NCBI GenBank assembly: GCA_902573235.1
Contig: CACGIZ010000001.1
Span: 119,399-183,398 of the forward strand
Length of the DNA: 64,000 bases
Direction of reading: 5' to 3'
Origin: an uncultured Pelagibacteraceae bacterium
GTDB lineage: Bacteria; Pseudomonadota; Alphaproteobacteria; Pelagibacterales; Pelagibacteraceae
The stretch's first letter is position 1. Each line of letters begins with the position of its first letter. Position numbers and translations under genes: made by a program. This document shows positions 1,590 to 34,170 of the stretch, piece by piece. The notes under the pieces were generated by a model. The model was given only the letters and a program-made list of their open reading frames with translations, made no database searches and had not been told where the DNA came from.

Positions 1590-2337
1590 TTGTCTGTTTG
1601 TATTTTTTCATCGCGGTGTTAGCCAAAATTAAATTTGGATCTAAAAATATCTTTGAAGATTTGATTGTTTTGAACGATTGAAATGCAAAAATTGCAATTG
1701 GTAATTCAGTACAACCAAGAATGATTCTTTTACATTTTTTTTTAATTAAAAAATTAATAGCAGGTTTAATTACTTTATTTGCTAATTTTACATTTCCCAT
1801 TTTGACAAGCTTAATCGCTTTATTTACAGAGTTATTTTGAATTGACTTACTAGGGAAAATTAGATTAAAATTTTTATCAAAGAATTTATTATACACACCT
1901 GTCTTTAAAGTTCCTTCGGTTGCAAGTAATCCAATTGATGAATTTTTTTTACATTTCTTTTTTGTGTGAATAAAAACTTCTTTAGGCATATTAACTATTG
2001 GTAATTTAATTTTTTTTTGTAAATCATCATACCAATAATGGGCAGTATTACATGGGATAACTATAAATTTACATTTACTTTTTTTTAATACATTGCATCC
2101 ATTTATTAAACTTTTAAGAACTGACGAATATCTTTTTTTACTTTTTTTACTATTAATTTTTTTTGATAAATTTCCTGTCTGAATACCTATAGACTCAGGC
2201 CTACCTGGAATATTTGATTTATTGTAAAGAAGAAATAAAGGATAATCTTGATCAATTTTACCTCTGTATAAAATTGCGAGTTTATTGCAGAAATCAAGAC
2301 CAGCTTGGGTCCCCATACCACCTAAAATACCAATCAT
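1579..2337 (-). CDS. Aspartate/glutamate racemase family protein
   Basis: A 252-residue protein of the Asp/Glu/hydantoin racemase superfamily, which interconverts amino-acid enantiomers with two opposed cysteines and no cofactor. Visible motifs are the N-terminal GILGGMGTQAGLDF loop, the first catalytic-cysteine motif PCNTAHYW at about residue 96, a TEGTLKTGVY segment, and the second cysteine motif LGCTELP near residue 210. Both catalytic cysteines are present, so the protein is probably active. Aspartate racemase is the closest fit (the NTAH motif and the length); glutamate racemase MurI is less likely because MurI usually has a VACNTAS-type motif. Confidence 0.85.
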   Translation of the reverse strand: MIGILGGMGTQAGLDFCNKLAILYRGKIDQDYPLFLLYNKSNIPGRPESIGIQTGNLSKKINSKKSKKRYSSVLKSLINGCNVLKKSKCKFIVIPCNTAHYWYDDLQKKIKLPIVNMPKEVFIHTKKKCKKNSSIGLLATEGTLKTGVYNKFFDKNFNLIFPSKSIQNNSVNKAIKLVKMGNVKLANKVIKPAINFLIKKKCKRIILGCTELPIAIFAFQSFKTIKSSKIFLDPNLILANTAMKKYKQTNVV

Positions 2338-25340: not shown

Positions 25341-25511
25341 GTGAAAGTAAAAAAGAAATTTATATCTAATATTGATCTAAATAATTCTTCTAAAGCATGT
25401 TCCCCATGTCTTTTAGAGTGTAAAAAGATCAATAAAAGAATAAATGACAGAAAACTTTCGAAAATTAAAACTAAGGAGGTTCCGCATATCCTAAAAGTAT
25501 TTAATTTTTGA
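25341..25511 (+). CDS. Small cysteine-rich protein inside the iron operon, 56 aa (not in ORF track)
   Basis: Reading from a GTG four bases after fbpA gives MKVKKKFISNIDLNNSSKAC... with the motif CSPCLLEC (Cys20, 23, 27) and a basic C-terminus (KKINKRINDRKLSKIKTK). The three closely spaced cysteines plus its place between the iron-binding protein and the permease suggest metal binding, but the frame could be chance. A near-perfect Shine-Dalgarno-like aaggaggt lies inside the frame near its end without a start codon at the right distance. Confidence 0.4.
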   Translation: MKVKKKFISNIDLNNSSKACSPCLLECKKINKRINDRKLSKIKTKEVPHILKVFNF

Positions 25512-30929: not shown

Positions 30930-31379
30930 TTGATGGACAGTACAGTTAAAACCAATTTTAATTGGTCTTGCAAAAATACTTGGAATAGAAGTGCAAAAAA
31001 TACTGCATGGTGTCTATTAGGTTGTGCTATTGGAGATTTTGGAACAATCTTATTTTTTCAATTGACTAAAATTCCTTTCCCAGTTTTTGGAATAATGACT
31101 TTAGCAGTTATAAATGGTTTAATCACAAGTATTATTCTAGAAACAATAGTTTTGATGAAACAAAATCTTAATTTTTCAAAAGCTTTTAAAACAGCAATGG
31201 GAATGAGTTTTATTTCTATGATTAGTATGGAAGTTACAATGAATTTAACTGACTATTTCTTAACTGGGGGTGCAATTTTAACTTGGTGGGTGATACCAAT
31301 TATGCTTATAGTTGGATTTCTAACTCCTTGGCCGTATAACTACTGGAGACTAAAAAAATTTGGTATTGCGTGTCATTAA
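30930..31379 (+). CDS. DUF4396 membrane protein
   Basis: A 149-residue protein with about four membrane segments. NTAWCLLGCAIGDFGTILFF (a CxxxC-type pair inside the first segment) and MGMSFISMISMEVTMNLTDYFLTGG match DUF4396, a family found next to copper genes. Methionine-rich membrane stretches (MGMSFISMISMEVTMN) suit copper handling. It directly follows the cupredoxin gene. Transport is an inference. Confidence 0.8.
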   Translation: MMDSTVKTNFNWSCKNTWNRSAKNTAWCLLGCAIGDFGTILFFQLTKIPFPVFGIMTLAVINGLITSIILETIVLMKQNLNFSKAFKTAMGMSFISMISMEVTMNLTDYFLTGGAILTWWVIPIMLIVGFLTPWPYNYWRLKKFGIACH

Positions 31380-32077
31380 AGAATTGGGACTATAAAACTT
31401 GGCTTTCATCTAAAAAATATATTTATTCCTTTAATAATTTTTTAATAAAACAAGTTAAATTAGATAAAAATTCCCATATTCTAGATATTGGTTGTGGACG
31501 GGGTAAGATATTAGGATCTTTATATTCAAGATTAAGATTAAAAAACAAACCAATTGGAATCGATATAGAAAGTCATAAAGATAGAGATAAAAGAATTCAT
31601 TTTAAAAAAATTGATGCAACAACATATCTTAAGAGTAATAATAAAAAATTTGATTTAATTTTAATTAAACAAACAATTCATCTTTTAAATTTTAAAGAAA
31701 TTAAAAAGTTAATTTTTATTTGTAAATCTAGACTTAAAAATAAGGGAAATATTGCTATTTTTACTTTAGAGACTTCTAAAAATGAAATTCCTGCTTTTTC
31801 ATTAATGTTAAAAAGACTTAAATTGTCCTTAGAAAGAGATAAAAAAATAATAAGATTTATTTCAAAAAATTATCGAAAAATTAAAAAAACAAGATTTTTA
31901 TTCAAAGTAAAATTATCACGGAATAAATATACAAAGATGATTAAAAATAGGTACATTTCAACATTACTAGGATTAAGCCCATCAGAAATTTCTAAGGGCA
32001 TTAACGAAATTAATCGTAAATACCAAAAATCATTGATTTTTAATGATAAATTGATCTGCTTAATTTTAGAAAAATAA
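31370..32077 (+). CDS. Class I SAM-dependent methyltransferase
   Basis: A 235-residue methyltransferase with SAM motif I HILDIGCGRGKILGSLY (about residues 36-52), acidic motif II GIDIE and motif IV FDLILIKQTIHLL. The start is a GTG overlapping the end of the DUF4396 gene by ten bases. The rest is lysine-rich, and the substrate is unknown. It ends just before the structured gap at 32086. Confidence 0.8.
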   Translation: MSLKNWDYKTWLSSKKYIYSFNNFLIKQVKLDKNSHILDIGCGRGKILGSLYSRLRLKNKPIGIDIESHKDRDKRIHFKKIDATTYLKSNNKKFDLILIKQTIHLLNFKEIKKLIFICKSRLKNKGNIAIFTLETSKNEIPAFSLMLKRLKLSLERDKKIIRFISKNYRKIKKTRFLFKVKLSRNKYTKMIKNRYISTLLGLSPSEISKGINEINRKYQKSLIFNDKLICLILEK

Positions 32078-32085
32078 TTTTTTTA

Positions 32086-32176
32086 CTTAAGGGTTCGCTC
32101 TTTCGTTCTCCAACCAAAAGAGCTCCCTTAAGTCGCCTTCTCGGCTTTTAAGTCCGAATGGACTTCAAGTTTTTTG
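32086..32176 (+). ncRNA. Candidate structured RNA / 3'-UTR with three stems and a U run
   Basis: Stem 1: cttaaggg (32086-32093) with cccttaag (32125-32132), enclosing gctcttt/aaagagc (32097-32103/32117-32123), 15 pairs in total. Stem 2: gcc-ttctc-ggc (32135-32145). Stem 3: aagtcc-gaat-ggactt (32150-32165) followed by six T (32170-32175). The last stem is a Rho-independent terminator on the plus strand. The block begins nine bases after the methyltransferase stop and could be its 3' UTR or an independent small RNA. No known RNA family was recognised. Confidence 0.6.
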
Positions 32177-32208
32177 TATTCGTTTATTTGAAATATAAAG
32201 CTACCCAG

Positions 32209-32235
32209 CTAAGTGTCAGGTGGCATTTGATTCAT
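32209..32235 (-). other. Octapeptide mini-ORF with a near-perfect Shine-Dalgarno
   Basis: On the minus strand AAGGAGGT (32250-32243) is followed at a seven-base spacing by an ATG at 32235 encoding MNQMPPDT and then TAG. Such a strong ribosome-binding site is unusual in this genome, where most genes have weak ones. It may be a leader peptide or an antisense transcript, or chance. There is no gene downstream on that strand, only the structured block at 32086-32176. Confidence 0.35.
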
Positions 32236-32272
32236 TAATTTTACCTCCTTGCAATAAAATTAATTTTTAGAG

Positions 32273-32331
32273 AGGTTGTATTCAACTAATATATTTTAGT
32301 TTGATTAAAATATATTTCTTGAATACAACCT
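32273..32331. repeat. 59-bp long palindrome in the intergenic gap
   Basis: Two 26-base arms (aggttgtattcaa... and ...ttgaatacaacct) with two mismatches enclose a seven-base loop, gtttgat. The inner arms are atatatttta/taaaatatat. It can fold to an unusually long hairpin on either strand. It is flanked by the mini-ORF ribosome-binding site on one side and by about 95 bases leading to a small membrane-protein gene on the other. Bases 32332-32424 show no clear feature beyond AT-rich sequence. Confidence 0.85.
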
Positions 32332-32424
32332 GTCTGTTTTATATATTTCGCACATCAAAAAAAACTTCCCTTTTTAAGAGAAATTTTAATTTGCATTAGT
32401 ATTTAATTTATATAATCTTAATGC

Positions 32425-32604
32425 ATGAAATATATTAGTGGTCTTATAAAATTAATAACAAGTTTAATTGTTTCTACGATTATAATTTATGCAATAAATT
32501 TTGTTGCTGGTTTTGCTGGTGCAGATTACACATTTACTAACGGTGAAGTTTTTGTAATTTGGATTTTAATGGCAATTTTAGTAAATAATTGTTTCAATAA
32601 ATAA
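32425..32604 (+). CDS. Two-span small membrane protein, 59 aa (not in ORF track)
   Basis: The frame MKYISGLIKLITSLIVSTII... has two hydrophobic helices (residues about 8-32 and 41-55) joined by a polar loop AGADYTFTNGEV. It ends ahead of the TPP riboswitch by about 50 bases. No family recognised. It lies between the palindrome and the riboswitch with its own start, so it may be independently transcribed. Confidence 0.5.
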   Translation: MKYISGLIKLITSLIVSTIIIYAINFVAGFAGADYTFTNGEVFVIWILMAILVNNCFNK

Positions 32605-32657
32605 CAATCTTAATTTGAAAAATTACTTTCCTAAACAACTAAAGTGTTATATTGAAT

Positions 32658-32725
32658 TGTTAGGGGTGTCTTTATAGACTGAGATTATACCCTTGGAACC
32701 TGTCCGGTAATTCAGAAAGGGAGAA
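32658..32725 (+). promoter_or_regulatory. TPP riboswitch (THI element)
   Basis: The conserved core is present in order: aggggtgtc, actgagattatac, ccttggaacctg, ccggtaattc and aaagggaga. These match the TPP aptamer's P2/J3-2 ctgaga and P4/P5 gaacctg motifs. The 3' strand ends in the SD-like gggaga seven bases before the ATG at 32728, so ligand binding would hide the ribosome-binding site. It controls the downstream symporter. Confidence 0.97.
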
Positions 32726-32727
32726 TA

Positions 32728-34170
32728 ATGGATAAAACATACTTTCTAACTCAATCTACATCATTAACAATAGTTATTACTATAAGTCTTATTTTCTTAA
32801 TATTAGGAATTTATCACTCAAACAAATTTCAAGGATTGAAAAATTATTTAACTGCTAATAGAAATATTGGAACATTTTCATTAACATCAAGTTTAATTGC
32901 TTCAGCTCTAGGTGCTTGGATTTTATTTGGTCCTGCTTCGGCTTCAACTTGGGGAGGGATGGGTGCAATTATTGGATATTCTTTAGGTACAGCATTTCCA
33001 ATGTTTTTTCTTATTTTTTTAGGAAAAAAAATTAGAAAAGAATTCCCTAAAGGTTCCACTTTAGTTGAATTTATAAGAAAAAAATTTGGAAAAAGTTTGT
33101 TCAAACTTATTTTACTAATGACAATATTTTATATGTTTATTTTTTTATGTGCAGAAGTGACTGCTGTAGCAGTATTAATCAATTATATATCTGGTACTGA
33201 ACTATGGTTAACTGCTTTGATAGTTCTATTATCCACATTAATTTATACTTTATATGGTGGTTTAAAGGCTTCTATTTTTACAGATAATATTCAAATGATC
33301 GTAATTTTCGTATTATTATTAATATCATTAATTTATATTAATTCATTTTCTGGTTCTCAATTTTCTTTTGAATTCATAAAGGAAAAAAATCCCCATCTTC
33401 TGAGTAGTGAATATATTCCAGGTTACACTGCTGGTTTAACTTTTTTTATTGCAGTTGCTGCAACAAATTTATTTCATCAAGGTAATTGGCAACGTGTTTA
33501 TGCTGCTAAAGATTATAAAACATTGAAAAAAAGTTTAATAATTTCTTTTTTTGTAATTATACCTATTGTTTTTTATATGGGTTTTTCTGGAATGGTTGCC
33601 TTTTCAATAGATCCAAATATAAGACCTGATCTTGGTTTTTTCTCCTTATTACTTAAAGAAAAAACCACCTTATTATCTGTTTTCATAATAGTGCTTGGTT
33701 TAGCCTTAACTATTTCGACTGTAGATACTTTAATAAATGCGATATCAAGTTTGATTGTTGTTGATGGAAAAGCTGTATTCAATTTTAAAAAAAAAACAAA
33801 TTACCTTAGATTCTCTAAATTTGTAATAATTTTTTTATCGATAATTTCATTTGTTGTAGCTTCAAAAGGTTTTGATATTTTATATCTATTTTTATTAGCG
33901 GATTTATTCTGTTGTACATTTGTATTAACTATTTTTTATAGTTTTTATAATAAGAATATTTCTGAAAAAACAGCTTATATTGCAATAATAATTGGATTAA
34001 TAAGTGGTATTTTATTTTTTCCTTCACCAGATTTTTCAAAAAGTTTACTAATCGGTATTTTGATACCTAAAGAATTGATAACACCTTTTATCTCTCAATC
34101 ATTATTATTTTTGTCTTTCCTTGTGGCAACTTTACTTCCATTTCTCGTGATTAAAGCTAAAAAGATATAA
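32728..34170 (+). CDS. thiV: Sodium:solute symporter, thiamine-pyrimidine (HMP) uptake candidate
   Basis: A 480-residue sodium:solute symporter with about thirteen membrane segments. SSS features include the NIGTFSLTSSLIASALGAWILFGPASASTWGG region, the TLYGGLKASIFTDNIQM segment and a sodium-site-like LALTISTVDTLINAISSLIVVD. Regulation by the TPP riboswitch immediately upstream ties it to thiamine. In SAR11 the riboswitch-controlled SSS gene thiV was proposed to import the pyrimidine precursor HMP. The substrate assignment rests on that published proposal and not on residues in the sequence. Confidence 0.88.
   Translation: MDKTYFLTQSTSLTIVITISLIFLILGIYHSNKFQGLKNYLTANRNIGTFSLTSSLIASALGAWILFGPASASTWGGMGAIIGYSLGTAFPMFFLIFLGKKIRKEFPKGSTLVEFIRKKFGKSLFKLILLMTIFYMFIFLCAEVTAVAVLINYISGTELWLTALIVLLSTLIYTLYGGLKASIFTDNIQMIVIFVLLLISLIYINSFSGSQFSFEFIKEKNPHLLSSEYIPGYTAGLTFFIAVAATNLFHQGNWQRVYAAKDYKTLKKSLIISFFVIIPIVFYMGFSGMVAFSIDPNIRPDLGFFSLLLKEKTTLLSVFIIVLGLALTISTVDTLINAISSLIVVDGKAVFNFKKKTNYLRFSKFVIIFLSIISFVVASKGFDILYLFLLADLFCCTFVLTIFYSFYNKNISEKTAYIAIIIGLISGILFFPSPDFSKSLLIGILIPKELITPFISQSLLFLSFLVATLLPFLVIKAKKI

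Follow-up and report, generated by a model that had tools for sequence, protein, structure and literature searches.

A conserved, free-standing small-RNA locus of SAR11 bacteria with a 6-9 codon reading frame and a putative ribosome-pausing C-terminus

SAR11 cells are among the most abundant cell groups in the ocean, with tiny genomes that encode few regulators; few small RNAs are known from them. What, in such a genome, does a structured gap of 347 nt between two genes contain? The gap in question (32078-32424) lies in a stretch of 64,000 nt from an uncultured Pelagibacteraceae bacterium (GenBank GCA_902573235.1, contig CACGIZ010000001.1), the whole of which is called the window below. An original prediction, made from the letters of the DNA, had noted a plus-strand block of three stems ending in a U-run terminator, a minus-strand AAGGAGGT followed by an octapeptide ORF, and a long palindrome, and had proposed that together they form one regulatory RNA locus, possibly of the IMES type. 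All three features were found where they had been placed (Table 1). Comparison with homologous loci indicates that the gap is a free-standing SAR11 small-RNA gene on the minus strand, with a predicted RNA of about 170 nt, and on the same comparison we regard it with high confidence as a real, selected and translated small-RNA locus. The idea of one regulatory locus thus stands as far as a conserved locus with a structured RNA and a genuine tiny ORF is concerned; the palindrome, however, is better read as promoter DNA.

Table 1. Features of the small-RNA locus and its convergent neighbour (coordinates in the window)
Feature	Position	Strand	Details
SAM-dependent methyltransferase-like gene, convergent neighbour	31370..32077	+	Pfam Methyltransf_31, 5.5e-9; context, outside the element
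Hairpin P3	32085..32133	-	96-98% of cells paired; 7/12 pairs with compensatory changes
Hairpin P2	32135..32145	-	95% of cells paired; 2/3 pairs with compensatory changes
Hairpin P1	32150..32165	-	6/6 pairs with compensatory changes
Mini-ORF MNQMPPDT-stop	32209..32235	-	8 codons plus TAG: ATG AAT CAA ATG CCA CCT GAC ACT TAG
Shine-Dalgarno sequence AAGGAGGT	32243..32250	-	read directly; at or next to the predicted RNA 5' end
Predicted sigma-70-type small-RNA promoter	32257..32285	-	TTGAAT (32285-32280), 17 nt, TAATTT (32262-32257)
Imperfect palindrome	32269..32335		arms 32269-32298 and 32306-32335, 90% complementary; arms carry both -35 boxes and the conserved extension TTGAATACAACC
Predicted sigma-70-type promoter, diverging from the small RNA	32319..32347	+	TTGAAT, 17 nt, TATATT

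Mini-ORF and hairpins of the minus-strand RNA

By itself, AAGGAGGT is unremarkable, with two occurrences in the window against 1.3 expected, and its significance lies in its conservation and not in its occurrence: GGAGG or GGGAGG is present in essentially all homologs. We take AAGGAGGT to match the 16S tail of SAR11, on general knowledge of bacterial anti-Shine-Dalgarno (anti-SD) sequences. The second copy in the window is at 25473-25480 on the plus strand.

Using a script, an SD sequence, a start codon and an in-frame ORF ending in PP[DE]T-stop or PDT-stop were recovered from 223 of 225 homologous loci; in the loci from L131 onward, which were collected by the exact C-terminal codon pattern, C-terminal identity is there by construction, and conservation of the C-terminus was counted among BLAST-found and model-found loci only. 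The spacing between SD and start codon ranges from 3 to 11 nt among the homologs, and the frame into the C-terminal motif is always kept. There are 34 distinct peptides of 6-9 residues, among them MNQMPPDT, MLILSPPDT, MLRITPPDT, MNLSPPDT, MKTPPDT, MLKLPDT and MSPPET, and their N-termini, which place 2-5 residues (M included) ahead of the motif, are free in both sequence and length. Within the motif, covariance-model homologs exhibit synonymous changes (CCA/CCG, CCT/CCA, GAC/GAT and ACT/ACA), D is exchanged for E, PP becomes LP in a single lineage, and all three stop codons (TAG, TAA and TGA) are used. The number of distinct peptides, their free N-termini, the synonymous changes and the use of all three stops point to selection on the C-terminal amino acids, and from this evolutionary evidence we conclude that the mini-ORF is translated. 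It offers a clean, testable example of selection acting on the four C-terminal residues of a peptide of 6-9 residues that is encoded by a free-standing RNA.

On inspection, one of the two loci in which the script failed (L115) carries MSPPET-stop. The other (L114, 1481-1642, minus strand) holds a degenerate copy of the element that lacks promoter, SD and start codon, and looks like a pseudogene in decay.

Most homologs also keep the trinucleotide CTG behind the stop codon, which suggests some constraint on the RNA and not on the peptide. Readthrough of the stop codon was considered and rejected, since in the alignments, judged by eye, the frame beyond the stop is open for some codons, its amino acids are unconserved and it closes variably. 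Pairing of the SD with the proline codons (AGGAGG with CCACCU) was also considered, and is weakened by lineages with CCA CCA and CCG CCA (L118 and L119).

Further downstream, on the 3' side of the ORF, P1, P2 and P3 are found in almost all of the lineages that were folded, and P3, which contains an asymmetric internal loop, forms the 3' end of the conserved RNA. In an alignment of 56 sequences, changes on both sides were seen at 15 of the 21 base pairs, a level of covariation reached by none of 500 shuffles, and 92.4% of the cells were paired, as opposed to 27-64% when the partners were slid by 1-3 columns; fitting the alignment to the structure biases the pairing figures upward, but by far less than would be needed to account for the contrast with the slid controls or for the double changes. 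This comparison indicates that the stems and the ORF are parts of one RNA. The stems of the original prediction are thus real, yet they constitute the 3' domain of a minus-strand RNA instead of a plus-strand block. Between the stop codon and P1 there is an exposed, A-rich linker, neither the sequence nor the length of which is conserved. An additional hairpin around the stop codon, proposed by RNAalifold, is broken in divergent homologs (those with ACA TAA and TGA) and was left out of the final structure. Taken together, the locus joins a conserved, selected ORF to selected structure outside of it, two of the marks of a translated small RNA.

Compared to shuffled sequences, both strands of the region fold better (z of -7.4 and -8.2), mostly on account of the palindrome; for the small RNA without the palindrome, z is -3.45.

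The U-run of the original prediction is also present, in that P1 is followed on the plus strand by CAAGTTTTTT, the sole terminator-like site found (0.2 in shuffles), and TTTT is present in this tail in 44 of 56 homologs. P1 and its T-run on the plus strand probably double as the terminator of the convergent gene, and the U-run is less likely to terminate the three-stem RNA as first proposed. On the minus strand, TTTT occurs within 15 nt after P3 in 29 of 56 homologs, with a mean of 4.6 T in 10. Because this U-run is not conserved, it is uncertain where the small RNA ends.

Divergent promoters and changing neighbours

The putative promoter of the small RNA, defined as TTGnnn-N16-18-TAnnnT with the -10 box ending 7-15 nt before GGAGG, was found in 156 of 161 unique homologs, where shuffles would give 8.5. 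Given this distance from the -10 box, the transcript is predicted to start at or next to the SD, that is, near 32250. For the diverging plus-strand promoter, the arrangement TTGAAT-ACAACC...TAnnnT at N17 was found in 159 of 161 unique homologs, with 7.2 expected from shuffles. The palindrome is upstream DNA, a predicted divergent promoter region, and not RNA. In some relatives, one of its arms is degraded, with the spacing between the -35 and -10 boxes retained. Exact copies of TTGAATACAACC occur at this locus only in three of four genomes searched, and the fourth has one extra copy. A role of TTGAATACAACC as a genome-wide operator was rejected, since other sites are no commoner than those of a reversed-pattern control.

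The plus-strand promoter (TTGAATACAACC...TAnnnT-CCCG) persists also in loci whose next gene is on the other strand. Such conservation where there is no plus-strand gene is not accounted for by the pausing-RNA model set out below. In the window, the plus-strand promoter is followed by a 59-codon ORF (32425-32604, plus strand) for a small membrane-like protein with no Pfam match, which is kept in many homologous loci. This ORF is followed by a sodium:solute symporter gene, upstream of which there is a TPP riboswitch aptamer (32652-32740, plus strand); at 50.8 bits it falls under the Rfam gathering score of 54.3, so that a default Rfam scan misses it.

On the other side of the element, a convergent gene follows P3 in almost all of 168 loci and its stop codon abuts P3, as that of the methyltransferase-like gene does in the window; the small RNA thus has no downstream target in cis. 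The identity of the neighbours is variable, with at least 18 different states and at least 24 changes over the tree of the element, and throughout these changes the unit of ORF and P1-P3 stays intact. In two element-free loci (L250 and L251), an aminotransferase that flanks the element in other genomes is directly followed by another gene. Many SAR11 cells keep the small RNA while its neighbours change. A scan for tRNA and tmRNA found neither.

Ribosome pausing and its alternatives

In inverse toeprinting, PP(D) ranked first and PP(E) fifth among the PP(X) pauses (PMC6238534). The mini-ORF carries such a motif with a strong pauser as X, PPD or PPE placed directly before Thr and the stop, in every lineage except ML[KN]LPDT-stop, which has a single proline and so lacks the classical EF-P-dependent motif. 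With PP(D) and PP(E) being strong pausing motifs, a ribosome pause would be expected near the stop codon. The reading that we favour, if only tentatively, is that of a small RNA that catches a ribosome with its 5' end and makes it pause. A sigma-70-type promoter would start an RNA of about 170 nt at or just before AAGGAGGT; a ribosome would bind the near-perfect SD at its 5' end, translate the ORF of 6-9 codons ending in Pro-Pro-Asp (or Glu)-Thr-stop, and most likely pause just before or at the stop codon. The paused ribosome would occupy the 5' half of the RNA, leaving the P1-P3 domain to protrude. The anatomy of the locus and the selection on it are shown by the comparison; transcription, pausing (from the published behaviour of the motif) and its consequence are what we infer. 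There is no downstream gene for a classical attenuator, and we therefore propose that the target of the pause is the RNA or the ribosome. Most likely, the paused ribosome would set the stability or the activity of the RNA, the output of which would follow the state of translation, such as EF-P or charged tRNA-Pro; alternatively, the RNA would act on the ribosome.

The likeliest rival to the pausing RNA, although we would not bet on it, is a tiny mRNA whose peptide, with its C-terminal PP[D/E]T, is the product, for example as a ligand of a protein, P1-P3 serving only to stabilise and terminate. A C-terminus conserved at the amino-acid level through synonymous and stop-codon changes is what a functional peptide would display, as are a strong SD and a dedicated promoter, and P1 and P3 look like a bidirectional terminator pair. 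Against it, the N-terminus varies freely in sequence and length and the peptide may shrink to six residues (MSPPET), the precise retention of an established pausing motif would have to be a coincidence, and conservation of P2 and of the 3' domain goes well beyond the needs of a terminator. The structured 3' domain, along with the free-standing gene and its own promoter, would suit a regulatory RNA that base-pairs in trans, in which the mini-ORF does no more than bring in a ribosome that shields or opens up the 5' end, with the exposed A-rich linker between the stop and P1 as its contact. This we consider somewhat more doubtful again, for the linker, the obvious single-stranded seed, varies in length as well as in sequence, and this reading does not explain why the peptide C-terminus is conserved. 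About equally doubtful is a more specific form of the pausing model, in which SD and PP[D/E]T-stop act as a capture-and-pause module that holds the ribosome, and P1-P3 acts on that ribosome or reports translation status in trans. If true, a ribosome-tethered regulatory RNA would be a class not described before, and one residing in abundant ocean cells.

A near-optimal SD at the 5' terminus, a minimal ORF and a strong pause motif, all kept, could also describe a ribosome trap, an abundant RNA that parks ribosomes in the manner of a hibernation or growth-arrest device; we hold this to be improbable, as the copy number would need to be very high and the structured 3' domain would serve no evident end. 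The layout of a pausing ORF followed by hairpins is that of a classical attenuator, and would suggest a leader peptide for a downstream minus-strand gene, were it not that P3 almost always borders on a convergent gene, which leaves nothing to regulate in cis and largely refutes the idea by orientation alone; the 18 neighbour states make it more improbable still, and we give it very little credence. Scarcely credible, finally, is a mere spacer, consisting of a bidirectional terminator and promoters with a fortuitous ORF: P1 does appear to act as a plus-strand terminator, and the block lies, with few exceptions, right against the stop codon of a convergent gene, but ORF, SD and frame persist with synonymous changes in all but two of the loci, which effectively refutes it, and the unit holds together through many changes of neighbour.

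Compared to known systems, the pausing RNA is related to two types, yet would appear to belong to neither, because it is free-standing and its SD starts translation. EF-P-dependent PP(X) motifs (PMC6238534), with which it shares its C-terminus, are usually found inside long proteins or cis-acting leaders, whereas here the motif, at which we infer pausing, ends an ORF of 6-9 codons on a free-standing RNA; the locus would make ribosome pausing outside of cis-acting leaders directly testable. The STAB-SD of cry3A is an SD at the very 5' end of an RNA, as is predicted here, and stabilises the RNA by binding 30S subunits (PMC4113751); it was described from Gram-positive bacteria with RNase J1, and starts no translation, unlike the SAR11 SD, which precedes a conserved start codon and ORF. 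The Salmonella mgtQ, a translation-aborting ORF of 8 aa (PMC8092293), is similar in having eight codons with ribosome-disturbing proline and acidic residues, but acts in cis on the downstream mgtB, while the SAR11 element has nothing downstream in cis.

Distribution and relation to catalogued RNAs

The proposal of an IMES-like RNA found no support: no Rfam 15 family, IMES included, reached its gathering score in the window, nor did any at the element in ten homologous loci, and a relaxed search gave miRNA-type and sRNA matches far below the cut-offs, which amount to chance. Two earlier screens of SAR11 (PMC2704228 and PMC6429828) do not name the element in their main text. The structured RNAs of Ca. 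Pelagibacter ubique HTCC1062 in the first of these resemble it, as far as described there, in being intergenic; the rhtB element shares a hairpin with an inverted repeat, but is described as one bulged hairpin in a largely conserved context, with no mention in the text of an ORF or divergent promoters. The short conserved ORFs of strain HIMB5 (PMC6429828), comprising sORFs and uORFs, are similar in lying in SAR11 intergenic regions and in having been found by comparison. That study lists three sORFs and some unnamed candidates in a supplementary table, and our element may be identical to one of the sORFs or of the candidates, so that priority is uncertain. Subject to a listing in such supplementary tables, the small RNA may be previously uncatalogued.

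The original prediction hinged on the sequence recurring in relatives with covarying stems; P1-P3 covary, as described above, and of 300 genomes sampled from the genus, 119 matched the gap in a nucleotide search. With R1, a covariance model built for the minus-strand RNA, 149 of the 397 genomes searched in the order gave a match, and 75 of 151 at high completeness. The matches include two sister genera, the spread into other genera of the family being a lower bound, and there is a single copy per genome. In sixteen near-complete genomes with no model match (14 of the same genus and 2 from a sister genus), the core motif was likewise missing, even when one mismatch was tolerated; the joint absence of both indicates a patchy distribution. 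The small RNA is absent from about half of the near-complete congeners, so it is not essential. No match to R1 or R2, a second covariance model, was found in the other alphaproteobacteria sampled. In a scan of GTDB contigs, the matches listed were confined to Pelagibacterales apart from one Streptococcus contig, which is probably a chance match. There were no copies in the viral contigs and phages searched, and with that and one copy per genome the element is not evidently phage-borne or mobile. The covariance model can now be used to search existing ocean metatranscriptomes.

In one locus of a sister genus (L112), a glycine riboswitch (1849-1935, plus strand; 72.8 bits) is located close to the element.
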